Positions 1,013 to 20,997 of a stretch of 25,070 nt of DNA are shown here, one piece after another. Made by a program: the position numbers and the translations under genes. The first letter of the stretch is position 1, and each line of letters begins with the position of its first letter. This DNA is from a virus. The stretch spans positions 1-25,070 of IMG/VR virus record IMGVR_UViG_3300018049_002861. The stretch is one strand, 5' to 3'. Under the pieces are notes generated by a model that ran no database searches, had not been told where the DNA came from, and was given only the letters and a program-made list of their open reading frames with translations.

Positions 1013-1570
1013 ATGAACTATTCAAAAGAGTATTTAGATCAATTAACTAATTTGCATGTCATAAAAAGTTTTGGCAATAGTACCAAAATACACAAACAAG
1101 TACAATCACTTGTTGAAAATAATAATATAAAAAGTATCTTAGATTACGGTAGTGGTAAAGGAGGTACTTCAGAAGCATTTAAAAACAAATGGCCAACAGT
1201 CAATGTAATTAGTTATGATCCTGTTACTAGTCCAATTGAATTACCTAATAATGTAGATCTCATATATAGTGCAGATGTGTTAGAACATATCGAACCAGAC
1301 TATTTTGATGAAACAATGGACTATCTTTTTAAAAGTTCAAAACATCAATGGCATCTAATTGCATGCCATCCTGCAAAAAAGTCTTTAAGCGATGGAAGAA
1401 ATGCACACTTGATTATAGAACAACCCGAATGGTGGTTAAAAGAATTTACAAAAAGACTTGGTACTGAATGGGAAATTGTACATTCTGAAGATTACATTAA
1501 AGTTGGAAAAACAAAAAAAGCAGGCGTACTACATTCTCTTAAATTTATAATAGAATTAAAAAGAAAATAA
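1013..1570 (+). CDS. Class I SAM-dependent methyltransferase
   Basis: A 185-residue protein with the SAM-binding motif I ILDYGSGKGG (residues 42-51), a motif II-like acidic YDP at 68-70, and a motif around SADVLEHIEPDYF typical of Methyltransf_11-like enzymes. The substrate is not evident. A Shine-Dalgarno AAGGAA sits 6 bases before the ATG. It is followed after one base by a second, unrelated methyltransferase and then by glycosyltransferases, so methylation of a sugar or a glycan end is plausible. The gene opens an accessory island between uvsY and uvsW. Methylation of DNA is an alternative, but no (D/N/S)PP(Y/F/W) motif is visible. Confidence 0.8.
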   Translation: MNYSKEYLDQLTNLHVIKSFGNSTKIHKQVQSLVENNNIKSILDYGSGKGGTSEAFKNKWPTVNVISYDPVTSPIELPNNVDLIYSADVLEHIEPDYFDETMDYLFKSSKHQWHLIACHPAKKSLSDGRNAHLIIEQPEWWLKEFTKRLGTEWEIVHSEDYIKVGKTKKAGVLHSLKFIIELKRK

Positions 1571-1571
1571 T

Positions 1572-2195
1572 ATGAAAAAAGTATTTGACTACTGGATGCC
1601 CGATACTGATGACCACTTTGAGAGATTAATTGCAAAGCGTGTTAAAAACGGCGGACCTGCTGAATATCAAGATGATGTAAGAGATGCTGCGTATAAGCAT
1701 GTAACTGATTTTGACGTTGTAGTAGATGCAGGCGCTAACGTAGGTTTATGGGCTAAGCCACTTGCTGAAAAGTTTAAAAAAGTAATTGCTTACGAACCAT
1801 TAGAACAAGTGTATTCCTGCTTAGAAAAAAATGTAACTGGGCTGCCCGTTGAAATTTACAGACATGCAGTTGGTAACGAAAATACTGTTGTTGAAATGAT
1901 ATACGATAGTGAAAATACAGGCGGAAGTTTTATAACCACCGTTGGATCCGGCAGTATTGAAATAAAACGTATAGATGATTTAAATTTGCCTAAGTTTGGA
2001 TTATTCAAAATAGATTGCGAGCGTCATGAACTTGAAGTTCTTAAAGGTGCAACAGAAACTATTTTAAAGTATAAACCTATTATTGTATGCGAACAGCAGG
2101 CTGATACTAACTTTTGTGCCGGTGAGTATTTGAGATCACTCGGAGCAATAGAAATTACAAATGTACGAAAAGATTATATTTTTGGATGGGAATAA
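1572..2195 (+). CDS. FkbM-family methyltransferase
   Basis: A 207-residue SAM-dependent methyltransferase. Motif I is VVDAGANVGLW (about residues 50-60), followed by AYEPLEQVY (73-81) where the acidic residue binds the SAM ribose. The later IKRIDDLNLPKFGLFKIDCE and LEVLKGATE segments are the hallmark of FkbM methyltransferases, which often O-methylate sugars or polyketides. The gene starts one base after the preceding stop and is followed directly by a glycosyltransferase (TAA then ATG), so it is almost certainly co-transcribed with both. I infer sugar O-methylation in the same glycan pathway. Confidence 0.88.
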   Translation: MKKVFDYWMPDTDDHFERLIAKRVKNGGPAEYQDDVRDAAYKHVTDFDVVVDAGANVGLWAKPLAEKFKKVIAYEPLEQVYSCLEKNVTGLPVEIYRHAVGNENTVVEMIYDSENTGGSFITTVGSGSIEIKRIDDLNLPKFGLFKIDCERHELEVLKGATETILKYKPIIVCEQQADTNFCAGEYLRSLGAIEITNVRKDYIFGWE

Positions 2196-3905
2196 ATGAC
2201 AAAAACACAAACTCCTCTTAAGATTTTTATTGGCTGGGATAGTCGTGAAGATATAGCATATCAAGTTGCAAAGAAAAGCATAGAAAATCTTGCTTCGGTG
2301 CCTGTTGATATTCAACCAATTAAGCAAAGAGAGCTACGTAGAGATGGTGTGTATCTAAGAGACGAAGATAAATTAGCCAGCACTGAATTTACATTTACTA
2401 GATATCTTGTTCCATATCTTGCTGATTATAAAGGCTGGGCGCTGTTTATTGACTGTGATTTTCTTTTTCTAGATGATGTTGCAAAACTATTCGAACAGGT
2501 AAATGACAACTATGCAGTAATGTGTGCGCAACACGATTATACTCCCCAACCGGGAAGGAAAATGGACGGAAAACAACAAATTCCTTATCCCCGAAAAAAC
2601 TGGTCTAGTATGATGTTGCTTAATTGTGCACATCCAAAAAATAAAGAATTTTTAACACCTGACAACATTAATGCAGAAAGTACTAGTGCAGCTTATGTGC
2701 ACAGATTCAGCTGGTTAGACGATCAAGATATCGGTAAATTAAGTCATGAATGGAATTGGTTAGTAGGATGGTATAAAGAACCAAAAGACGGGAAACCTAA
2801 AGCCCTACACTATACCGAAGGCGGTCCTTGGTTTGAAGAATACCAAGAATGCGAATATGCAATTGATTGGATTAAAATAGAGCATACAATAGTAAATGAT
2901 CTTCTTGAAGAATCCAAAAAAAAAATCAGCGACCTAAAAACAAGAGTCATTAGAATTGAGGATTTAACGCTATCTGCCGAGTTAAAGGAAATATACATTA
3001 GTCTAACTAATAAAATGTTAGATCCAACTCAAAAATATTTAAAAAATGATTTTGAAAACCAAATGGAGACAATGATGGGCGTTAAAGTTGCATCGATTCT
3101 AACTAAAAAACAAGACGATACTGATTTTGATTATCGTCGCAAAGGTGTAGATTATGATCCGTATCTTAAAGACTTCATTTTAGGCGTAGGCGGAAAAATT
3201 GGGGATTTTGACGATAAAGAAAGTTTGAAAGATCATACAATAGTAATAAGGGGGCTTGGCGGCGGTGGACAAAAGGCACTAAAATGGTGTCAAAAAAATA
3301 ATATTGATTTTTATGCAATAGATACAGGTTATATACAACCAAAGCTAGCTAAAACAAAACAATATCACAGAATAACAAAAAATAGTTTACAGAATCTTGG
3401 ACCACTTAAAGATTTTCCTAGTGATAGATTGAACAGGTTAAATTGGAGGCCACGTAAACACAGAGGCGGTTCTTATATTCTCATTTGTCCGCCAAGTGAA
3501 AAAGTAATGAAGTTTTATAACCAAGATTTAGATACTTGGATGGATAAAACTATTGCACAAATCAAAAAGCACTCTGATAGAGAAATACGAATAAGATTAA
3601 AGCCAAGTCGTACTGAAAGAGTTACCACAAATCCGATTCAAAGCGAATTTGATGACATGCATTGCTTAGTAACATTTAACAGTATTGCAGCAACAGAAGC
3701 CTTACTTTATGGTAAGCCTGCAATAACTTTAGCACCTAATGCAGCATCAATGATTTACGATGCTAAAATAGAAAATATAGAAAGCCTGCCGATGATATCT
3801 ACAGATCTAGTAGAAGCTTTTGCAAGACATTTGTCGTATAATCAATTTACCTCTGCTGAAATGCGTTCGGGTTTTGCATGGAAAACACTCCGGTCAATGG
3901 AATGA
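2196..3905 (+). CDS. Two-domain glycosyltransferase (GT-A plus GT-B-like module)
   Basis: A 569-residue protein. The N-terminal half (about 1-235) starts with IFIGWDSREDIAYQVAKKSI and has ALFIDCDFLFLDD with a DxD-type DCD at 86-88, the metal and nucleotide-sugar site of GT-A enzymes (GT8-like). A charged helical linker follows (about 236-320). The C-terminal module (about 335-569) has a strand ending ILICPPS, a basic IRIRLKPSR near 464-471, a Thr-Phe-Asn-Ser segment and a final region ending WKTLRSME. This module resembles the two proteins encoded at 3910-4833 and 5695-6540, although its version of their R-x-H-P motif is degenerate (RLKPS). Two glycosyl transfers by one chain, or one catalytic and one binding module, are both possible. 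Donor and acceptor are unknown. Confidence 0.8.
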   Translation: MTKTQTPLKIFIGWDSREDIAYQVAKKSIENLASVPVDIQPIKQRELRRDGVYLRDEDKLASTEFTFTRYLVPYLADYKGWALFIDCDFLFLDDVAKLFEQVNDNYAVMCAQHDYTPQPGRKMDGKQQIPYPRKNWSSMMLLNCAHPKNKEFLTPDNINAESTSAAYVHRFSWLDDQDIGKLSHEWNWLVGWYKEPKDGKPKALHYTEGGPWFEEYQECEYAIDWIKIEHTIVNDLLEESKKKISDLKTRVIRIEDLTLSAELKEIYISLTNKMLDPTQKYLKNDFENQMETMMGVKVASILTKKQDDTDFDYRRKGVDYDPYLKDFILGVGGKIGDFDDKESLKDHTIVIRGLGGGGQKALKWCQKNNIDFYAIDTGYIQPKLAKTKQYHRITKNSLQNLGPLKDFPSDRLNRLNWRPRKHRGGSYILICPPSEKVMKFYNQDLDTWMDKTIAQIKKHSDREIRIRLKPSRTERVTTNPIQSEFDDMHCLVTFNSIAATEALLYGKPAITLAPNAASMIYDAKIENIESLPMISTDLVEAFARHLSYNQFTSAEMRSGFAWKTLRSME

Positions 3906-3909
3906 TGCA

Positions 3910-4833
3910 ATGAAAATAATCAGCTATTTAAAATCAGTACCGGAACGTAATAGCAATAAAACAAAAACTGATCTATTAATAAATTATGCAGAAGGTGCAA
4001 AAAAGTTAGGTGACGAAGGTCAAGTACTTGCTGTACAAAACTGGCAACCTTCAGACGTAGCTGTAATACAGGGTTGGGTGTATGATAATATATCAACTTC
4101 GCATCTTAGATTAAGATCAGAAATAATAAAAAATCAACTAGCAAACAATAGATTTGTTTGCATTGCAGATGCAAATCTTTTTGGCTTTGTACCTAACAAA
4201 AAAGATTTATTTTTAAGATATAGCTTCAATGGCGTATTTCCTAGCACTGGTATTTATTGTGACGATACTGTTGATCCAAATAGATGGAATAAAATTAAAA
4301 ATACGATTAATATAGATATCGAACCGATAAAAAAAGGAAAAACAGTTTTACTTTGTGTTCAACGTAACGGTGGTTGGAGCATGAAAGGTCTTTCTAATAT
4401 AGATTGGATATTATCTACGGTTAAAAAGCTACGCATGCATACAGATAGAAAAATTGTAGTTAGATCTCATCCAGGTGACAAACGTGCAAAAGAATGGCTT
4501 AAGGCACCGCAGCTTAGAGAGCTTGATCAACTTGATGCGGTAATAAGCCCCATTGGCACGCCTTTAGAAAACGATTTATTTAAATGTCATGCTGTAGTAA
4601 ATCATAATAGTAGTAGCATTGTAGGACCTATTATAAAAGGTCATCATGCTTTTATCACTGATCCAAAAGACAGTCATTGTGCTGAGGTAGCAAACACAGA
4701 TCTAAGTTTAATAGAAAATCCAAACCTATTCGATAGGCAAAAATGGTTAGAAAGAATTAGTATGTTTCATTGGAGCTTGGGAGAACTAAGCAGCGGCAAA
4801 TGCTGGAAACATATGAGACAATATTGCAGTTAG
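3910..4833 (+). CDS. GT-B-like glycosyltransferase, tandem paralogue
   Basis: A 307-residue protein. I chose the ATG at 3910, five bases after the previous stop, over a longer frame from 3820 because the extra 30 residues overlap the upstream coding region and have no counterpart in the related protein at 5695. Recognisable segments are a strand near VLLCVQRNGGW, then TDRKIVVRSHPGDK with the R-x-H-P motif, HAVVNHNSSS, and the C-terminal IENPNLFDRQKWLERIS. The same order of segments occurs in the proteins at 5695-6540 and at the end of 2196-3905. The basic-His-Pro motif before a Ser-rich nucleotide-binding loop recalls TagF/KpsS-type capsule transferases; this similarity is by eye. The gene ends with a 4-base overlap with an opposite-strand gene. 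Confidence 0.7.
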   Translation: MKIISYLKSVPERNSNKTKTDLLINYAEGAKKLGDEGQVLAVQNWQPSDVAVIQGWVYDNISTSHLRLRSEIIKNQLANNRFVCIADANLFGFVPNKKDLFLRYSFNGVFPSTGIYCDDTVDPNRWNKIKNTINIDIEPIKKGKTVLLCVQRNGGWSMKGLSNIDWILSTVKKLRMHTDRKIVVRSHPGDKRAKEWLKAPQLRELDQLDAVISPIGTPLENDLFKCHAVVNHNSSSIVGPIIKGHHAFITDPKDSHCAEVANTDLSLIENPNLFDRQKWLERISMFHWSLGELSSGKCWKHMRQYCS

Positions 4834-5681
4834 CTATTCCAATATCTTTCTTTTCTGTTTACCATTAAATCTTTAGCTAAACTTTTACCTGTATTTTTCC
4901 TATCACCTTTCATGTGATCAATCCAAGTACCTAGCACTGTGTTAATTAGTGGGTGTCCTCCGCCCCCTGTTTTAGCTTCTTTTAAGTACATATCAGCACT
5001 GTAATCTAGCACATTAGGGTCACGTTCTTTTATTTTGTTTAATAAATCGCCAAACACAAAACTGTCGTGCCATTCTTCTAATTTAAAGATACCATTCTCG
5101 GCATCTTCATATACACGTTCAAATTCTTTCAAAAACTTTTGACATGTTTTATCATTTAGATTCATACCATAAAATCCACACTCAGGCCATGTTTGTGAAC
5201 CTTTGCCTCTGCCTACATATGTAATCCATTTTTCGTCGGGTAATAGATTTTTAAATTGATCGTATGACCATTTAGAATGAACAACAGTATCTGCGTCCAT
5301 CCACACACACCAGTCATATGATTTTTCACATGCATCAAACACTGCGTAGACTTTATTTGCAAAACGTACAGCATCCCATTTAAATGCTTTATGATAATCT
5401 CTAGGTCTTTTAGCTTTTATATCTTCAGGAGGTATGCCGTTTGCTTTAGGTACATTGCCCCATTTTTCTTTGAACGCATTTAGTTTAGGTAGTGCTTCTT
5501 TTGCATTAAATACTAATACCTGTGTTGGATCTTTTACAACTGGAGAGCAGTCTTCTGCATATACATAAAGTTGTATACGTTTGTCGACATTCTCTTCAAA
5601 ACTGGTGATAAACTTTTGCCCGTACAAATCTAAGCCAGGCTTGTGAAAAGTGGTAACTACTTTTATATCTTTAAATTGCAT
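4830..5681 (-). CDS. GT-A type glycosyltransferase on the opposite strand
   Basis: A 283-residue protein (start ATG 5681; a longer frame from 5813 would run into the divergent gene and adds residues without recognisable features). It opens with KVVTTFHKPGLDLYGQKFI, has a WCVWMDADTVVHSKW segment with a DADT metal-binding DxD-type motif at 129-132, and a WHDSFVFGDLL segment near the C-terminus that resembles acceptor-side parts of such enzymes. It transfers a sugar from a nucleotide donor; donor and acceptor are unknown. It is the only minus-strand gene in the glycan island. Its start lies 13 bases from the divergent start at 5695 and its stop overlaps the plus-strand stop at 4833 by 4 bases (TTAG), like a cassette inserted backward between two paralogues. 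Confidence 0.78.
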   Translation of the reverse strand: MQFKDIKVVTTFHKPGLDLYGQKFITSFEENVDKRIQLYVYAEDCSPVVKDPTQVLVFNAKEALPKLNAFKEKWGNVPKANGIPPEDIKAKRPRDYHKAFKWDAVRFANKVYAVFDACEKSYDWCVWMDADTVVHSKWSYDQFKNLLPDEKWITYVGRGKGSQTWPECGFYGMNLNDKTCQKFLKEFERVYEDAENGIFKLEEWHDSFVFGDLLNKIKERDPNVLDYSADMYLKEAKTGGGGHPLINTVLGTWIDHMKGDRKNTGKSLAKDLMVNRKERYWNS

Positions 5682-5694
5682 AAGGTATTTAACT

Positions 5695-6540
5695 ATGAAA
5701 TTCAATCTATGGACAAATAATGGAGCAATGAATAGTAGTCCTGTGTTCAAAGCTTTTGAAATCGGAGCTAAGTCTCTAGGACACGAAGTTGTACACAACA
5801 GTACTGACGGCATAGACGTGATATGGAGTGTGCTGTGGCACGGACGTATGGCACCAAATGAAAAGATTTGGCATAGAGCTAGGCAACAAAATAAACCTGT
5901 AATTGTATTAGAAGTTGGTGTTTTGAATAGAGGTACATATTGGAAAGTCGGCCTAAATGGTATAAACCGCGATGCTTATTTTGCTCCTACTGGTTTTGAC
6001 GGCGCAAGAAAATATATACTAAACTTACAAACAAAGCCGTGGCGAGATAATCGAGACGGAGATATTCTACTTGTTACTCAACATGATAAAAGTCAACAAT
6101 GGAAAAACATGCCTTCTATGTCCACGTGGGTTTACGAAACAATAGAAGAAATTAGAGGATATACTGATAGACAAATCACAGTACGATCACATCCTCGTTG
6201 CAGACTTTCAGGCCTGCAATTTGAGTTTAAAAATGTCAGAGTGCAAGAGCCAAAAAAGTTAGACGGAACTTATGATGATTTTGATTTTAATTGCAGGAAG
6301 TCATGGGCAGTAGTAAATTGGTCAAGCAATCCTGCGATAGAAGCTGCTATTCAAGGTATACCTGTGTTTATAGGTCCTAGTAGTTTAGCATACGAAGTAG
6401 GTAATCATAGCTACAGTACAATAGAAAATCCGTTAACACCTGACAGGACACAATGGTTAAATGATTATGCTCACAAAGAATATTCTGTTCCGGAAATACA
6501 AGCAGGCATACCTATAATATACTTGACAGAACGTCTTTAA
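5695..6540 (+). CDS. GT-B-like glycosyltransferase, tandem paralogue
   Basis: A 281-residue protein starting at ATG 5695; a longer frame from 5650 would overlap the divergent minus-strand gene. Its segments are NNGAMNSSPVFKAFEIGAKS, then IDVIWSVLWHGRM, ILLVTQHDKS, TDRQITVRSHPRCR (the R-x-H-P motif), WAVVNWSSNPAIEAAIQGIP, and IENPLTPDRTQWLNDYA near the end. The order matches the protein at 3910-4833, and the N-terminal halves share an [LF]NG element (KVGLNG here, RYSFNG there). It probably transfers a sugar or sugar acid to a surface glycan; the WSSNPA segment looks like a nucleotide-binding loop. No signal peptide or membrane segment is visible, so it should act in the cytoplasm. The specific donor is unknown. 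Confidence 0.7.
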   Translation: MKFNLWTNNGAMNSSPVFKAFEIGAKSLGHEVVHNSTDGIDVIWSVLWHGRMAPNEKIWHRARQQNKPVIVLEVGVLNRGTYWKVGLNGINRDAYFAPTGFDGARKYILNLQTKPWRDNRDGDILLVTQHDKSQQWKNMPSMSTWVYETIEEIRGYTDRQITVRSHPRCRLSGLQFEFKNVRVQEPKKLDGTYDDFDFNCRKSWAVVNWSSNPAIEAAIQGIPVFIGPSSLAYEVGNHSYSTIENPLTPDRTQWLNDYAHKEYSVPEIQAGIPIIYLTERL

Positions 6541-9544: not shown

Positions 9545-9910
9545 ATGGGAATAAAAGCTGGAAAGATTTGGGGTAATACCGAATTAATACATGCCAACGG
9601 TGTATTAGAATTCCATCGTATAGAATTCAAAGCAGGATACAAGTGTTCAGAACACGAACACAAGTTTAAATGGAACGGCTTCTATGTCGAGTCGGGCGAA
9701 ATGTTAGTTAGAGTATGGCAAGACGACGATCAAGAAGGTTTAGTTGATGAAACAATTTTAAAGGCAGGAGACTTTACCCAAGTCAAGCCAGGAAAGATTC
9801 ATCAGTTCCAAGGTTTAAAAGATGGCGTAGCTTTTGAACTTTATTGGGCTGAATTTGCCCATGATGATATTGTACGTCGCACAATTGGAACACACGTAAT
9901 AAGGGAATAA
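9545..9910 (+). CDS. Cupin-domain protein
   Basis: A 121-residue single-domain cupin (beta barrel). Cupin motif 1 appears as HEHKFKWNGFYVESGEM (His37, His39, Glu49) and motif 2 as GDFTQVKPGKIHQF (His86), giving the usual three-His/one-Glu metal set. A good Shine-Dalgarno AAAGGAAA precedes the ATG. The reaction cannot be read from the sequence; small cupins include sugar isomerases, epimerases, dioxygenases and sugar-binding regulators. Two genes lie between it and kdsA, so a role in sugar-nucleotide metabolism is plausible but inferred. Confidence 0.8.
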   Translation: MGIKAGKIWGNTELIHANGVLEFHRIEFKAGYKCSEHEHKFKWNGFYVESGEMLVRVWQDDDQEGLVDETILKAGDFTQVKPGKIHQFQGLKDGVAFELYWAEFAHDDIVRRTIGTHVIRE

Positions 9911-9913
9911 AAA

Positions 9914-10252
9914 ATGTTACAATGGTTATATGATATTTTAGGTATCAATCGTCAAGCAGTAAAAGCAAAAGTTGCAGAAAAACGTGCTGCTGTTAAAGAA
10001 AAAATTTCTGATGTAAAAGCTACTGTAAAAGAAGAAGTAAGTGGCACAATGTCAGAAGTAAAGTCAAAAGTAGCTGCTAAGAAAACAGCAGTAAAAGCAA
10101 AAGTAGCTGATGTAAAATCAAAAGCTACTGATTTTGCTTCGATGAAAAAAGCAGATCTTGTTGCTGAAGCAAAGAAGCAAAAAATTAAAGTAGCTGCATC
10201 AGCAAGTAAAGCAGCTATAATTGCTGAACTTGAAAAAAAGATAAATGGTTGA
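9914..10252 (+). CDS. Eleven-residue-repeat helical protein with SAP-like C-terminus
   Basis: A 112-residue Lys/Ala-rich protein. After a hydrophobic start (MLQWLYDILGI), residues 15-69 form five consecutive 11-residue units beginning AVKAKVA, AVKEKIS, TVKEEVS, EVKSKVA and AVKAKVA, a hendecad pattern like that of LEA-type and apolipoprotein-type amphipathic helices. The C-terminal 36 residues (MKKADLVAEAKKQKIKVAAS and KAAIIAELEKK) look like a SAP/HeH helix-extended-loop-helix, which binds DNA in other proteins. The gene has a strong AAGGGAA Shine-Dalgarno and overlaps the next gene by 8 bases. Possible roles are binding the phage or host nucleoid or coating membranes; neither is shown. I do not recognise a named family for the whole protein. 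Confidence 0.75.
   Translation: MLQWLYDILGINRQAVKAKVAEKRAAVKEKISDVKATVKEEVSGTMSEVKSKVAAKKTAVKAKVADVKSKATDFASMKKADLVAEAKKQKIKVAASASKAAIIAELEKKING
9956..10120 (+). repeat. Five tandem 33-base (11-codon) units
   Basis: The region encodes residues 15-69 of the preceding entry as five 33-base units. An 18-base run beginning AGCAGTAAAAGC occurs at 9955-9972 and again at 10087-10104, exactly 132 bases (four units) apart, which indicates recent duplication or conversion rather than convergence. The period is perfect, with no in-frame gaps. Confidence 0.75.
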
Positions 10253-10508
10253 CTACATTACCGGACAAGCTTTAATTTATGAGCGAGTTGACGGTGTAGT
10301 ATATGCACGATATCGAGATCCCCCTTATAATCATCAACCTCGTTGGATTATAGGTGGGGATGCCGATGCTGTTGCTAAAGCAAAAGGATCGTTTTTGTCT
10401 TGGAATGATTTTGAAACTATGAATAAGTTAGCAAAAGAACATCCAGCACTTAAAAAACAAATGTCTAAACTTTTAGATTTATATTTCCTTTTAAAGGATA
10501 ATCAATGA
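10245..10508 (+). CDS. Small conserved protein of unknown function
   Basis: An 87-residue protein starting at an ATG that overlaps the previous gene by 8 bases and ending in an ATGA overlap with kdsA, so translation is coupled on both sides. It has GQALIYERVDGVVYARYRDP, then a Pro/His/Trp-rich stretch PPYNHQPRWIIGG, and a helical C-terminus. The first half looks like a small beta unit and the rest like one or two helices. No function recognised. Position between the repeat protein and kdsA is the only clue; it may belong to the KDO block. Confidence 0.7.
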   Translation: MVDYITGQALIYERVDGVVYARYRDPPYNHQPRWIIGGDADAVAKAKGSFLSWNDFETMNKLAKEHPALKKQMSKLLDLYFLLKDNQ

Positions 10509-11281
10509 AAATTATAGCAGGACCGTGTCAACACGAAAGCCTTGAACATAGCACAATGATTGCCAAACACTGTAAGTCAGTGTGCGACGATCTAGGCATT
10601 GACTATTATTTCAAAGCTAGCTTTGATAAAGCAAACAGGACAAGTGCTAACGGTAAGCGTGGTCGTGGCATGCAACGCACTATGGACGACTTTGTACAAA
10701 TAAAAGAAAATCTTGATGTTAAGATTCTTACTGACTTTCATAGTGTGTTTGAAATTCATGCATGGCGAGGTGTCGACGAATGGTATAATGCTATAGATGT
10801 AATTCAAATTCCTGCGTTTTTATGTAGGCAAACAGACTTAATTACAACCGCTTGTAATTCAGGAAAAATTGTTAACATTAAAAAAGGACAATTCTTAGCA
10901 CCATGGGATGTTGAAGGTATATTATCAAAAACCAAAAGTGCTAACGAAGTATGGATAACTGAAAGAGGAACAAGTTTTGGATATAACACTTTGGTGGTTG
11001 ATTTCACTGGTATACTTTACATGCTTGAGCACTACAACAATCCTATTGTATTTGATGTTACCCACTCAGTACAGAAACCAGGTGGTAAAGGCTCAAGCTC
11101 GGGTGGTAACAGGAATTTTGTTGCTCCACTTTCCCGCGGCGCTGCTGCTATGGGCGTGGACAACTTTTTCCTAGAAGTCCATGATGACCCTGATAATGCA
11201 CCTAGTGATGGTCCTAATATGATACGTCTTGATAACTTTGAAACAGTTATTAAGGACATTAAGGATAGCTATCGTGAATAA
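10505..11281 (+). CDS. kdsA: 3-deoxy-D-manno-octulosonate 8-phosphate synthase (KDO-8-P synthase), metal type
   Basis: This enzyme condenses phosphoenolpyruvate and D-arabinose 5-phosphate to KDO 8-phosphate, the first committed step to KDO. The sequence (258 residues) has IAGPCQHES at the start, YFKASFDKANRTS (about 35-47), WITERGTSFGY, FDVTHSVQ, FLEVHDDP and APSDGPNM. Cys8, His187, Glu224 and Asp235 correspond to the four metal ligands of the metal-dependent class (Aquifex Cys11, His185, Glu222, Asp233); in the metal-free E. coli enzyme the Cys is Asn. It is full-length and appears intact. A Shine-Dalgarno AAGGAT lies 6 bases upstream. kdsB follows with an 8-base overlap. KdsC and KdsD are not in the window and would have to come from the host. 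Confidence 0.92.
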   Translation: MKIIAGPCQHESLEHSTMIAKHCKSVCDDLGIDYYFKASFDKANRTSANGKRGRGMQRTMDDFVQIKENLDVKILTDFHSVFEIHAWRGVDEWYNAIDVIQIPAFLCRQTDLITTACNSGKIVNIKKGQFLAPWDVEGILSKTKSANEVWITERGTSFGYNTLVVDFTGILYMLEHYNNPIVFDVTHSVQKPGGKGSSSGGNRNFVAPLSRGAAAMGVDNFFLEVHDDPDNAPSDGPNMIRLDNFETVIKDIKDSYRE

Positions 11282-11990
11282 CACTGCTATTTTTATACCA
11301 GCTAGATTAGCAAGCACTAGATTTCCAAAAAAGATGCTTGCTGACCTCAACGGCAAAAGTCTTATTCGTACAGTGTACGACAAATGCGTAGCTACTGGAT
11401 TAGATACCTATGTGTTAACCGACAGTGCCCAAATAAAAGAAGAAATACCAGCTGAGCATGTATTCATTACACCTTACGCTGATAACGGCACTGAACGTTG
11501 CGCACACGGCGTTGAAGCAGTATCGGGCAAAGGCTTTTTTAGACGAGCTTCGGGAATATATAAAAGTTATATTAATGTTCAAGGCGACATGCCTGACATT
11601 ACTGAAGATATAATCCTTGCTATTAAGCAAGGGTTAGACGAAGGGCATAAGGTAGTAACAGCATACACTGATATGGCTCCTGAGCTGCGCACAGATCCTA
11701 ACTCAGTTAAGATGATTCACAACGGCACACATGCGCACTGGTTTTGTAGAGCAAGTTTAGAGTACGGTGATCATCATCTCGGTGTATATGGTTACAATTG
11801 GCGCACACTGGTTAGCTATAAGTCTATGCCCCAGTCTGAAGAAGAAAAAATAGAGAAATTAGAACAGTTGCGTTTTCTTCAAAACGGTGTTAATATTAAT
11901 ATACAGAAGGTAGACTTCAATGGTATGGAAATAAATACACCAACAGATTTAGAGGAATGGCGCAAGCATAATGCCAAATGTAGAAATTAG
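11274..11990 (+). CDS. kdsB: CMP-KDO synthetase (3-deoxy-manno-octulosonate cytidylyltransferase)
   Basis: KdsB couples CTP and KDO to CMP-KDO, the activated donor. I chose GTG 11274 (238 residues) since the protein then begins NNTAIFIPARLASTRFP, the usual KdsB start with the nucleotide-binding Arg-rich loop, with AAGGA 8 bases upstream; an upstream ATG at 11229 would overlap kdsA by 53 bases. NVQGDMP (101-107) corresponds to the usual NVQGDEP, with Glu replaced by Met. Near the C-terminus, EINTPTDLEEW corresponds to the usual VDTPEDLE, so the first Asp (a proposed second metal ligand) appears as Asn. The protein is full-length, but these two changes make activity uncertain. It overlaps the PEP carboxykinase gene by 20 bases. 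Confidence 0.85.
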   Translation: MNNTAIFIPARLASTRFPKKMLADLNGKSLIRTVYDKCVATGLDTYVLTDSAQIKEEIPAEHVFITPYADNGTERCAHGVEAVSGKGFFRRASGIYKSYINVQGDMPDITEDIILAIKQGLDEGHKVVTAYTDMAPELRTDPNSVKMIHNGTHAHWFCRASLEYGDHHLGVYGYNWRTLVSYKSMPQSEEEKIEKLEQLRFLQNGVNINIQKVDFNGMEINTPTDLEEWRKHNAKCRN

Positions 11991-13170
11991 TACAGTACCT
12001 ACTGGAAGAAGTCCCGATAACAAATACTATTTCGGCGAACTTACAAGCGAGCTAGATTTAACTCGTCCTAAATATAATAAAATCGGTAAAGATGAAGACT
12101 TTGAAAAGTTCTTTGATCAAATTACAAGTTGCGAAGATTTAGATCATATTATCTATTTTACTACTTGCGGAATACGTTTTAGATTTATAACTAACGATTA
12201 TCGGCATGCCCAGTTTGTAAGAAATATGTTCACCGACGAAGATTGGGCAGACGAAGAGTCTTGGGATTGGACTATTTGTCATAGCACTTCGTTAAATATT
12301 GAAGAACCAAAGATCTATATTAACTTAGATAGTTGTGATATTTTAATTGCTGGCACAACATTTATGGGTGAAATTAAAAAGTCTGTATTTGGAGTTGTAA
12401 GTTTCTTACTACCAAAAAAGAATATTTTACCTATGCATTGTAGTGCATTTACATTTGCTGGCACTACAAATCTTATGTTTGGATTATCTGGTACAGGAAA
12501 AACTACGTTAAGTAGTGACCCTGATTTCATGCTCATAGGTGATGATGAGATTGCATGGCATAACAAGGGCATTGAAATGATCGAAACTGGTTGCTATGCA
12601 AAAAGCGAGGGGCTTACACCTGATACACACGAAACTATATTCAATGCAGTTGAAAAGGCAAAAGATCATAATACACTTGTGATCGAAAATCCCGGAGTGC
12701 CGAATGCTAGATTAAGCTATCCGTTGCATTGTGTTGAAAATGCATATCATCAAGATCGCGAATTTAATCACCCTAAAAACATCTTTTTCTTAACAATGGA
12801 TGCAAAAGGTGTATTTCCCTCAATAAGCAAAATTACCGGAAACACAGTAAAGCGTTTCTTTGAAACAGGGTACACTAGTCAAATGCCAGGCACCGAAGCA
12901 GGCACTGACGAGATTAAGCCTTTATTTTCGCCTTGCTATGGCTCGCCATTTATGCCAAGAGCAGTAAGTGAATATAGTGATTTACTAATGAAAAAGATAG
13001 ACGAACACAAATGCAATGTGTATTTGGTAAACACTGGTATGGACAAAAAAGGTGTTCGCTTTCCGCTTGACTTTACTAGACGATGTGTTAAAATAGCTAT
13101 TACTGAGGGAGCAGCAAACCAATCTACTGCTTGTTTAGCGATACTAGAAGAATTAATTAATGCCAAATAA
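11971..13170 (+). CDS. pckA: PEP carboxykinase (ATP), shortened form
   Basis: PckA converts oxaloacetate and ATP to phosphoenolpyruvate. Seen in order: TGRSPDNKYYF (Arg13 = E. coli Arg65), GTTFMGEIKK (Lys137 = Lys213), MHCSA (His156 = His232), the P-loop GLSGTGKTTLSSD (171-183), IGDDEIAW (Asp191/192), NARLSYP (Arg247 = Arg333), FLTMDAKGVFP, and YLVNTGMDKKGVRF. The spacing between Lys137 and His156 matches E. coli. The protein is 399 residues against about 540, lacking most of the usual region before Arg65 and being shorter in the middle and at the C-terminus. One position differs: E. coli Tyr207 is Phe131 here. Directly downstream of kdsA/kdsB, it could supply PEP to KdsA; this is inference. 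Confidence 0.88.
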   Translation: MPNVEISTVPTGRSPDNKYYFGELTSELDLTRPKYNKIGKDEDFEKFFDQITSCEDLDHIIYFTTCGIRFRFITNDYRHAQFVRNMFTDEDWADEESWDWTICHSTSLNIEEPKIYINLDSCDILIAGTTFMGEIKKSVFGVVSFLLPKKNILPMHCSAFTFAGTTNLMFGLSGTGKTTLSSDPDFMLIGDDEIAWHNKGIEMIETGCYAKSEGLTPDTHETIFNAVEKAKDHNTLVIENPGVPNARLSYPLHCVENAYHQDREFNHPKNIFFLTMDAKGVFPSISKITGNTVKRFFETGYTSQMPGTEAGTDEIKPLFSPCYGSPFMPRAVSEYSDLLMKKIDEHKCNVYLVNTGMDKKGVRFPLDFTRRCVKIAITEGAANQSTACLAILEELINAK

Positions 13171-13627
13171 AGAATTAGATTTATTTAAAGAACTTATTCC
13201 TGCTATTGATATGGGAATAAAAGAACTATACGATGCTGCTAGCGACGACGGCAAAAAAGATATAAAACTAGATTTATGGAATCTAAATAGATACATAAGT
13301 AGTGTTAAAGGTAACAGAGAGAAACAAGAATTAGCAGTATTTAAAGTAAACGAATACTATAATAAACATTGGGCAGAGATAGGTGCAAAACATCCTAAGT
13401 TGCAATGGCAATTACTGTGTGTTGCAGGCAAGACAGGAAAAAAAGAGTTTCATCCTTGGATTGGCCTTAAGAAGAAAAAAGGCGCAAACTCTAAAATAGT
13501 AAACATGCTTGCAGGCATTTATCCAAATATGAAGATGGACGAGGTAGAACTTCTTGCTGGAACACTTACAAAAAAACAAATCAAACAACTGGCTGAAGAC
13601 CATGGCGTCGACACTAAAGGACTCTGA
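13160..13627 (+). CDS. Probable clamp-loader small subunit (gp62-like)
   Basis: A 155-residue protein that starts 11 bases before the pckA stop. It contains WNLNRYISSVKGN, a helix with NEYYNKHWAEIG, the segment KHPKLQWQLLCVAGKTGKKE followed by FHPWIGLKKKK, and a C-terminus with MLAGIYPNMKMDEVELLAG and LTKKQIKQLAEDHG. This order resembles gp62 of T4-like marine phages, the subunit that with gp44 loads the gp45 sliding clamp; the identification rests on remembered motifs, not alignment. The usual partners gp44 and gp45 are not in this window, which weakens the call. It is full-length by comparison with such proteins. It overlaps the next gene by 26 bases. Confidence 0.5.
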   Translation: MPNKELDLFKELIPAIDMGIKELYDAASDDGKKDIKLDLWNLNRYISSVKGNREKQELAVFKVNEYYNKHWAEIGAKHPKLQWQLLCVAGKTGKKEFHPWIGLKKKKGANSKIVNMLAGIYPNMKMDEVELLAGTLTKKQIKQLAEDHGVDTKGL

Positions 13628-14306: not shown

Positions 14307-14794
14307 ATTTATTGTATTATCCTAACGAATTTTTATCTAAAACTTTAGACGAAGTTGATATAGAAAATATAACTTTTGACACTAAAGATATTAAAGAACA
14401 AATGTTAGACATAATGTTATCTAATATAGGCATTGGTTTAAGCGCAAATCAAGTAGGGCTAGATTACAGACTTTTTGTTATGGGAAATACTAGAGAAGAT
14501 GCAGTTATGTGCATTAATCCTAAAGTGTTACAATATACAGAAACAAAAAGTCTTGATGTCGAAGGTTGTTTAAGCTTTCCTGGTATAAACATTCAAGTAC
14601 AGCGCCCAAGAGATATTCTTGTTGAATACTATGACGAAAATCTAGAGTTGAATCGAACAGTAACTTCTGATTACAGTGCAAGATTATTTTTACATGAACT
14701 TGATCATTTAAACGGCATAACATTTAAAGATAGAGTATCTAAATTAAAATGGAACTTAGCTGAAAAGAAAGCAAAGAAAAATGCCCGACGTTGA
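14303..14794 (+). CDS. def: Peptide deformylase
   Basis: Peptide deformylase removes the formyl group from nascent bacterial proteins at the ribosome. All three catalytic motifs are present in 163 residues: GIGLSANQ (43-50, motif G-x-G-L-x-A-x-Q), EGCLS (87-91; Cys89 binds the metal) and HELDH (131-135; His131 and His135 bind the metal, Glu132 is the base). The protein lacks the long C-terminal extension of many bacterial enzymes, as seen in short phage versions. It ends in a Lys/Arg-rich helix (KWNLAEKKAKKNARR). Phage deformylases are known in marine phages; they may speed processing of viral or photosystem proteins. It overlaps the upstream gene by 4 bases and the downstream polymerase-like gene by 14. 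Confidence 0.93.
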   Translation: MNLLYYPNEFLSKTLDEVDIENITFDTKDIKEQMLDIMLSNIGIGLSANQVGLDYRLFVMGNTREDAVMCINPKVLQYTETKSLDVEGCLSFPGINIQVQRPRDILVEYYDENLELNRTVTSDYSARLFLHELDHLNGITFKDRVSKLKWNLAEKKAKKNARR

Positions 14795-15350
14795 CATTGA
14801 CTTTGCTGACAGATCTATTATACTAGAAAAACTACAGCACAGAGTTGCAATGCTTTCTAACGGAAAAAAGCATAACACTGGAATATATCCGACAGAAATT
14901 CCGCACAATCCTATAGACAACTGCTCTACACTAAACTACAAAGACGCAGATGATCGAGGATATTTTAAATTAGATTTTCTTAACGTAAGCATATACAAAG
15001 ATATTCAAAGCGAAGATCAATTAGATTATCTAGTTAGCAAAGAACCGTTATGGGATCTGTTGTGGCAAAAAGACTTTAGTGATTTAGTGTTTCATCTTAA
15101 CGGACATAGTGAAATTTTACAAAAATTGAAACCACGTAACGTAGAGCAACTAGCAGCTACACTTGCAATCATACGACCTGCTAAACGGTATCTTTTAAAT
15201 TCTGATTGGGATACAATTTTACGTGAAGTTTGGGTACAACCAGACGGTGATGAATATTTCTTTAAAAAGAGTCATTCTTTTTCGTATGCATTTGCTGTGA
15301 TTGTACATATGAATTTAATTTGTGAAAAAATTTCTTACGGATATACTTAG
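14781..15350 (+). CDS. Short C-family (DNA polymerase III alpha-like) core fragment protein
   Basis: A 189-residue protein that begins directly at the Pol III alpha catalytic motif MPDVDIDF (residues 1-8, the PDxDxD aspartates). Further matches to DnaE are FKLDFLNVSIYKDI (Asp65, corresponding to the third catalytic Asp in KFDFLGL), FHLNGHSEILQKLKP (like FQxES..M..L...P), VEQLAATLAIIRPAK (like the DL.A..AL.RPGP segment), and KKSHSFSYA (like NKSHSAAYA). It lacks the GSGAGS glycine loop, the PHP domain, the long fingers insertion and the OB fold, so on its own it is unlikely to be a full polymerase. It is a second copy of the family in this window, along with 19363-20997. Its role is unknown; similar short proteins occur in marine phages. 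Confidence 0.75.
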   Translation: MPDVDIDFADRSIILEKLQHRVAMLSNGKKHNTGIYPTEIPHNPIDNCSTLNYKDADDRGYFKLDFLNVSIYKDIQSEDQLDYLVSKEPLWDLLWQKDFSDLVFHLNGHSEILQKLKPRNVEQLAATLAIIRPAKRYLLNSDWDTILREVWVQPDGDEYFFKKSHSFSYAFAVIVHMNLICEKISYGYT

Positions 15351-19362: not shown

Positions 19363-20997
19363 ATGGCAGACAACGATTTAGAAAACATAGAAAAACTATT
19401 ACAAAGATTTAAAAGACCAATACCGCAAACAGAAGAATACACACTTAGGCTAGTTGAAGAATTTGAACTAATATTAAATCAGAGATTCACAGATTATTTT
19501 TTACAAATTTGTGACATTATAGATCTTACTCAAGACTTAACACACATGACTAGAGGATCTGCAGGAAGTAGCTTAGTTTGCTACTTGTTAGGCATTACTG
19601 ACGTAGATCCAATTAAATGGCGTATACCCGTAGCACGATTTATGAATCCAATGCGTGACGATTTACCAGATGTTGATATCGACTTCGAACATCATCGTCA
19701 GCTAGAAGTAATGGATCGCATATTTAAAAAATGGCCTGGTAAGACTGCTCGCCTAAGCAATTATGTAATGTACAGGCAAAAAAGTGCACGTAAAGAAGCA
19801 GCTAAACGCTTAGGAGTTAAAGGGAATCTACCCCGTAACTTTAAGTATGAAGATTACGACATTGATCCAAAGGAAGCAAAGCGTATCGAGAATAGACTTA
19901 TTGGTAAGAAGCGAGCAATATCAAAACATTGCGGCGGCATTGTAATGTTTACACGACAATTACCTAAAAGTTTAATTTCTCAAGATAATCAAATACTGTT
20001 AGACAAATATGAAGTAGAGGATTTAGAACACCTTAAAGTTGACATACTTGCAAACAGAGGTTTGTCGCAACTACTCGAAATTGATCCTGATACTGCTTTA
20101 GCAGATTACCCTGAAGAAGATCAAAAGACAAGTGAGTTGTTATGTCGCGGCGACATACTAGGTGTTACCCAGGGTGAGTCACCGGCTATGCGAAGATTGT
20201 TTAGAGCAATACAGCCAACTTCAGTTCACGATTGTGTGTTTGCTACAGCTATGGTTAGGCCAGTTGCTATGAGCGGCAGACAAAAAGCAGCAATGTTTCA
20301 AGACTGGAGTCAAGAAGCTATACAGGATAGTATAGTGTTTGAAGACGACGCAATATCAATTATATCAGATATAATAGGTGTTGATATGTATGAAGCAGAT
20401 ATGTATCGACGTGCATTTGCAAAAAAGAATGATGAAAAGATTTTAGAATTTGTAGAACGCATGGGAGTACACCCCCGAAAGCAAGAGGCCATGGCTGCCT
20501 TACAAAGTTTATCAGGATTTGGCTTATGTCGTGCACACGCAGTTAACTTAGGTCGTCTTATATGGGCCCTAGCTTACCAAAAAGCGCATAACCCTAAAGA
20601 ATTTTGGCGTGCAAATATAAAACATTGCCAAGGGTCATACAGACCCTGGGTATATCAAGTAGAGGCCCACCGTCAGGGTATACCCACATATTCAGGATGG
20701 TGGCATAGGGGGTTCCCTAATAATGTAGGGGTTCGACAACTATGGCTCGATAGGGTCGAGTTTGCAGGTGTTATTGCTAATGGGCGTTGTTATAGGGGCA
20801 AAGGCAACCGTTGGGTAACCTTTCTTACCCTTGGCATAGGCTACGGAGAATACATCGACATTGTAGTTAAACGTGCAGTATCTTATCGAGACGGTGACAT
20901 AGTTCAAGGTCAAGGTCGTATACAGCATAGTAATAATAGCGACTTTATTGATACTAGCATGGTCGACGTGTATTCGTTTACAGACTGGAACAGATAA
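19363..20997 (+). CDS. Compact C-family DNA polymerase-like protein (Pol III alpha core, no PHP)
   Basis: A 544-residue protein with the Pol III alpha (DnaE) core motifs in order: TRGSAGSSLVCYLLGITDVDP (63-83; glycine-rich palm loop), ARFMNPMRDDLPDVDIDF (91-108; catalytic PDxDxD at 102-107), LEHLKVDILANRGLSQ (221-236; third catalytic Asp227), GVTQGESPAMRRLFRAIQP (267-285; FQxES-like), VHDCVFATAMVRP (288-300), GFGLCRAHAVNLGRLIWALAYQKAHNPKEF (385-414; FNKSHAAAYA-like), and an OB-fold at about 465-523 (VEFAGVIANGRCYRG). There is no PHP/proofreading domain and no N-terminal part before the glycine loop, and no beta-clamp or tau-binding C-terminus. Full DnaE is about 1160. This is probably a phage polymerase or a polymerase-derived accessory; activity is unproven. 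Confidence 0.8.
   Translation: MADNDLENIEKLLQRFKRPIPQTEEYTLRLVEEFELILNQRFTDYFLQICDIIDLTQDLTHMTRGSAGSSLVCYLLGITDVDPIKWRIPVARFMNPMRDDLPDVDIDFEHHRQLEVMDRIFKKWPGKTARLSNYVMYRQKSARKEAAKRLGVKGNLPRNFKYEDYDIDPKEAKRIENRLIGKKRAISKHCGGIVMFTRQLPKSLISQDNQILLDKYEVEDLEHLKVDILANRGLSQLLEIDPDTALADYPEEDQKTSELLCRGDILGVTQGESPAMRRLFRAIQPTSVHDCVFATAMVRPVAMSGRQKAAMFQDWSQEAIQDSIVFEDDAISIISDIIGVDMYEADMYRRAFAKKNDEKILEFVERMGVHPRKQEAMAALQSLSGFGLCRAHAVNLGRLIWALAYQKAHNPKEFWRANIKHCQGSYRPWVYQVEAHRQGIPTYSGWWHRGFPNNVGVRQLWLDRVEFAGVIANGRCYRGKGNRWVTFLTLGIGYGEYIDIVVKRAVSYRDGDIVQGQGRIQHSNNSDFIDTSMVDVYSFTDWNR

Follow-up and report, generated by a model that had tools for sequence, protein, structure and literature searches.

Metabolism has one of its central branch points at phosphoenolpyruvate (PEP). 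On the side of its consumption, kdsA and kdsB have been listed among the auxiliary metabolic genes of surface-water viruses (PMC10653327), and KdsA has been found in a marine viral genome (PMC5332604). Judging from the available excerpts of these papers and from cyanophage S-SCSM2R, the marine systems resemble the locus described here in that KDO-8-P synthase and CMP-KDO synthetase are carried by phages. They differ in that the same excerpts describe no link to a PEP-forming enzyme, and the kds neighborhood of S-SCSM2R likewise lacks one. On the side of PEP formation, pckA and fructose-bisphosphate aldolase have been annotated on viral contigs from trench sediments (PMC12448302); the accessible part of that report offers annotation only, with no compact clade, gene neighborhood or host displacement. 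PEP carboxykinase (PEPCK) is also encoded by the giant viruses Catovirus and Klosneuvirus (reviewed in PMC9270025). These enzymes have the same fold as the phage protein, but they belong to viruses of eukaryotes, are at most 30% identical to it and fall outside the compact phage clade.

The phage enzyme shares with the cellular ATP-dependent PckA (PF01293; E. coli and T. thermophilus structures) the whole-length fold, the P-loop and the residues for metal, oxaloacetate and ATP. Unlike those enzymes, it has ∼400 rather than ∼530 residues, is only 30–36% identical to them, carries a fixed Y207F change and sits in a separate clade on a long stem. The literature searched contained no report of this compact clade, of its linkage to kds genes or of a bacterial replacement. 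Here we analyze a window of 25,070 nucleotides, a virus record in which such a pckA follows kdsA and kdsB. We favor, with some reserve, the reading that PckA is a mobile gluconeogenesis enzyme of phages, one that in this phage probably supplies PEP both for KDO and for sugar synthesis in general.

Arrival of pckA in a kdsA-kdsB locus

The window is a fragment of a T4-like phage. Its UvsX, UvsY, UvsW and DnaB-like genes, together with T4-like neighbors in related loci, provide the phage context expected of an auxiliary metabolic gene. A sequence-only reading of this DNA had proposed three overlapping genes, and these proved to be present: the open reading frames of kdsA (10505–11281, 258 aa), kdsB (11274–11990, 238 aa) and pckA (11971–13170, 399 aa), all on the plus strand, overlap by 8 and 20 bases and match their families far beyond chance. 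The kdsB start is most plausibly the GTG at 11274, which gives the 8-base overlap; the open reading frame list also offers an upstream TTG at 11229. On the same strand, a conserved gene of the syntenic block (10245–10508) overlaps the 5′ end of kdsA by 4 bases, and a conserved phrog_11758 gene (13160–13627) overlaps the 3′ end of pckA by 11 bases.

Other parts of the window deserve brief mention. A plus-strand cupin gene (9545–9910; PF07883, 1.5e-7) is a recurrent neighbor of phage kdsA, kdsB and pckA; it is conserved at 53 of the 70 phage kdsA loci and at 17 of the 36 pckA loci. A block at positions 1013–6540 consists of methyltransferase and glycosyltransferase-like genes, which have few Pfam matches and probably serve glycan modification. 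The separate genes at 14781–15350 and 19363–20997 have in common a PDVDIDF-like motif recalling DNA polymerase III alpha, and the former matches a phage DNA polymerase family.

In syntenic phages whose kdsB is 90–94% identical to that of the window, kdsA and kdsB are followed directly by a homologue of the gene at 13160, and pckA is absent. This synteny shows that the window pckA joined a pre-existing kdsA-kdsB pair. Base-level comparison places the extra unit between two copies of an 11-bp direct repeat, TAATGCCAAAT, one at the pckA start codon (11969–11979) and the other at that of the following gene (13158–13168), where it bounds the inserted unit on the right; in three relatives (L102, L103 and L105) the unit between the repeats is missing. 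Compared in this way, pckA appears to have been inserted via the short repeat. We propose that kdsA-kdsB would be a long-standing sugar-nucleotide pair of this T4-like phage group, and that pckA would have been acquired afterwards, from a family of compact ATP-PEP carboxykinases carried by phages, and placed between kdsB and the next gene.

The kdsA-kdsB locus of relatives also holds other, unrelated cargo (MetK, GAPDH, hemE, DegT, GMD and methyltransferases), and pckA lies in other phages near DNA polymerase or a gp46/gp45-like cluster, so the adjacency of pckA to kds genes may reflect shared insertion hotspots. In five syntenic relatives (L144, L145, L147, L148 and L154), kdsA and kdsB flank a DegT-type aminotransferase and a GDP-mannose 4,6-dehydratase, which suggests a broader sugar-nucleotide cassette. 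In another phage, a uroporphyrinogen decarboxylase (HemE-like) gene lies between kdsA and kdsB (L159:4073–5050).

A proposed PEP supply between KDO synthesis and gluconeogenesis

The order kdsA-kdsB-pckA recurs in other phages (L178 and L224). Elsewhere the arrangement is kdsA-pckA-kdsB (L166, L173, L175 and L243), pckA-kdsA (L226 and L233), kdsA-pckA (L223, L229–L231 and L234) or pckA-kdsB (L014). Viral-contig searches recovered more than 80 loci, and kdsA or kdsB is near pckA in 8 of 36 dereplicated pckA loci. On the PckA tree, kds linkage requires a minimum of three changes; a single clade of all kds-linked PckA is rejected (p = 8e-5), and a single origin of the window pckA with the main kds-linked clade is not rejected (AU test, p = 0.13).

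The commonest metabolic partners of phage pckA are class I aldolase and GAPDH. Of the 36 dereplicated pckA loci, 18 have one or the other no more than 5 kb from pckA, as against 1 of the 67 kdsA-only loci (Fisher p = 2.5e-9); the two sets come from different phage groups, so that this contrast is not a controlled comparison. The GAPDH neighbor is of type I and scores above cut-off, and the aldolase neighbor resembles fructose bisphosphate aldolase models with scores under their cut-off. Loci with pckA plus GAPDH and/or class I fructose-bisphosphate aldolase are L003, L180, L181, L183–L190, L194, L223 and L240; a PiT-like phosphate transporter gene is also present in some of them.

These partnerships raise the alternative that survives best, namely that pckA is general gluconeogenesis cargo, that its place beside kdsA-kdsB marks nothing but a cargo hotspot and that the PEP it yields is not specially tied to KDO. 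Such a view accommodates the dominance of aldolase and GAPDH, the varied cargo that enters the kdsA-kdsB locus of syntenic relatives, the clean insertion at the 11-bp repeat and the lack of a KdsA/DAHP synthase homologue in 23 of 30 pckA-bearing phage records. It fits less well with the several phages in which kdsA or kdsB adjoins pckA in differing orders. Moreover, in six of the seven records that do have both, some of them listed because the adjacency had been seen, the KdsA homologue adjoins pckA or is one gene off; among records of at least 40 kb, 2 of 22 have such a homologue, in both cases adjacent to pckA or one gene away. On balance we regard the cargo-only alternative as possible but rather unlikely. 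NeuB was considered as the PEP consumer of the kdsA-less phages and set aside, as it occurs in none of the 30 pckA records.

The sequence-only reading had gone further in the other direction, taking pckA for a dedicated PEP supply whose gene order might be conserved in related phages. Close relatives, which lack pckA, do not share this order, and it recurs in distant, nonsyntenic phages; the PEPCK fold and the catalytic residues apart from Tyr207 are kept. What endures of that proposal is a plausible supply of PEP to KdsA in the window phage, backed by the recurrent linkage, and what falls away is the word dedicated, given the many kdsA-less records and the aldolase and GAPDH partners. We infer the catalytic activity, the direction of the reaction and the use by KdsA of PckA-made PEP. 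Under the reading that we favor, PckA would most likely convert oxaloacetate and ATP to PEP during infection, in the service of gluconeogenesis in general. Some of this PEP would also pass to KDO-8-P synthesis, both here and in the several phages with an adjoining kdsA or kdsB. A PEP-making family that travels with gluconeogenesis genes, and that adjoins a sugar synthase using PEP, suggests that these phages push host carbon up into sugars and surface glycans.

Identity of KdsA and KdsB

KdsA scores 317.8 bits against TIGR01362, above the equivalog cut-off of 314, and 331 bits against NF003543 (cut-off 242); its best PDB match is 3fs2 (9.4e-77). By these matches it is clearly assigned as a KDO-8-P synthase, which would form KDO-8-P from arabinose-5-phosphate and PEP. 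KdsB passes the gathering score of PF02348 (CTP_transf_3; 7.7e-21) and lies under the NCBIfam cut-offs of TIGR00466 and NF003952 (92 vs. 155 and 153.8 vs. 193 bits, respectively). It is a probable CMP-KDO synthetase, which would convert KDO to CMP-KDO. The NCBIfam shortfall would also fit a KdsB that acts on another acidic sugar, so that the module would yield a different CMP-sugar; this is improbable, however, since the neighboring KdsA exceeds the KDO-8-P synthase cut-off and the PDB matches of KdsB are all KdsB proteins (for example, 2y6p at 1.8e-25).

The isomerase and phosphatase steps would be provided by the host. That KdsD is absent and host-supplied had been predicted, and the lack of any KdsD-type (SIS) gene in 16 related records, mostly fragments, is in line with this. 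Two candidates for the missing steps were rejected: the ∼310-aa gene 5′ of kdsA, considered as KdsD, has no Pfam match, with no SIS domain in the 16 records, and the HAD gene 3′ of pckA, considered as KdsC, matches the phosphomannomutase family PF03332 instead. HAD proteins of this eukaryotic-type phosphomannomutase family (L005:7226–7942 and homologues) are encoded directly or one gene 3′ of phage pckA in many loci.

The compact PckA in phages and bacteria

The window PckA matches PF01293 at 5e-93 (312.8 bits vs. a gathering score of 26.5) and reaches 272.9 bits against a curated cut-off of 590 for the NCBIfam pckA equivalog TIGR00224; it is therefore filed as a PF01293 member and not as that equivalog. 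At 399 aa it is ∼130 residues shorter than cellular enzymes. An AlphaFold model built from 50 relatives has a pLDDT of 89 and replaced an earlier model from 14 sequences (pLDDT 71). It aligns with T. thermophilus PEPCK (2pc9) over 382 residues with a Z score of 39.1 and an rmsd of 2.4, so the predicted PEPCK fold appears complete, with some parts shortened. In E. coli numbering, R65, K212, K213, H232, the P-loop, D268, D269, R333, R449 and T455 do not vary across 54 compact sequences. Phe occupies the position of Tyr207 in all 54, and 43 of 44 canonical sequences have Tyr there; we note this tyrosine as conserved in the canonical enzymes compared and do not take it as defining ATP-type PEPCK. 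In all, 25 differences between compact and canonical PckA are fixed, and dN/dS for pairs of compact PckA is 0.03–0.16. Mutants of Tyr207 bind CO2 and PEP more weakly, which if anything would favor the decarboxylating direction.

On the tree, the compact sequences group in a single clade (100/100) that is distant from canonical PckA and drawn almost solely from uncultured phages. Seven PckA matches, the only ones in an annotated phage collection, were rejected as relatives, being 31–42% identical and far from the compact clade; several are bacterial genome contigs or short contigs. A bacterial genome scan turned up the compact PckA in five genomes, all titled uncultured Alphaproteobacteria; four are single-cell-type isolates and one is labeled as a MAG. 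Their copies nest inside the phage sequences in a clade with 100/100 support. Because the compact form is the only type of PckA found in these five genomes, and because the copies are nested in the phage tree, the compact enzyme very probably works and forms PEP. The lost segments and the fixed change of Tyr207 to Phe could instead indicate that PEP formation has been lost and that the protein is mainly carboxylating, an oxaloacetate decarboxylase or a regulator, a view with which the 25 fixed differences and the low NCBIfam pckA score would agree, but it is very unlikely given that the other catalytic residues checked are all kept, that the full fold is predicted, that an E. coli Y207F mutant was crystallized with oxaloacetate bound (according to the title of PDB entry 6at3) and that, among the five incomplete genomes with no other PckA found, a PPDK/PPS domain is absent from four (G001–G004) and only weakly matched in the fifth (G005).

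The bacterial copies also bear on the wider history of the family. The five genomes with only compact PckA belong to a single genus of 12, in which four others have only canonical PckA and three have neither; in the wider family, canonical PckA is present in nearly all of the 149 genomes sampled. The simplest reading is transfer from phage to host followed by loss of the canonical pckA, with the incompleteness of the genomes as its main caveat. With no PckA found other than the phage-type enzyme, the five genomes suggest a phage-derived replacement of a central-metabolism gene, and they serve as a natural test of whether the compact enzyme works. The full sequence of events, in which a compact PEPCK evolved in phages, moved together with GAPDH and class I aldolase as part of gluconeogenesis, was repeatedly coupled to KDO synthesis and passed to bacteria, displacing the ancestral PEPCK in a small-genome alphaproteobacterial lineage, seems to us evenly poised between right and wrong. 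The old site of canonical pckA yielded no close homologue of the flanking gene. In compact-PckA genomes with informative contigs, pckA plus one gene lie between hprK and an acyl-CoA dehydrogenase-like gene (bacterial compact-PckA loci L245 and L247–L250). In sister genomes, hprK adjoins the acyl-CoA dehydrogenase-like gene without pckA (L307–L309), and the canonical pckA is located elsewhere.
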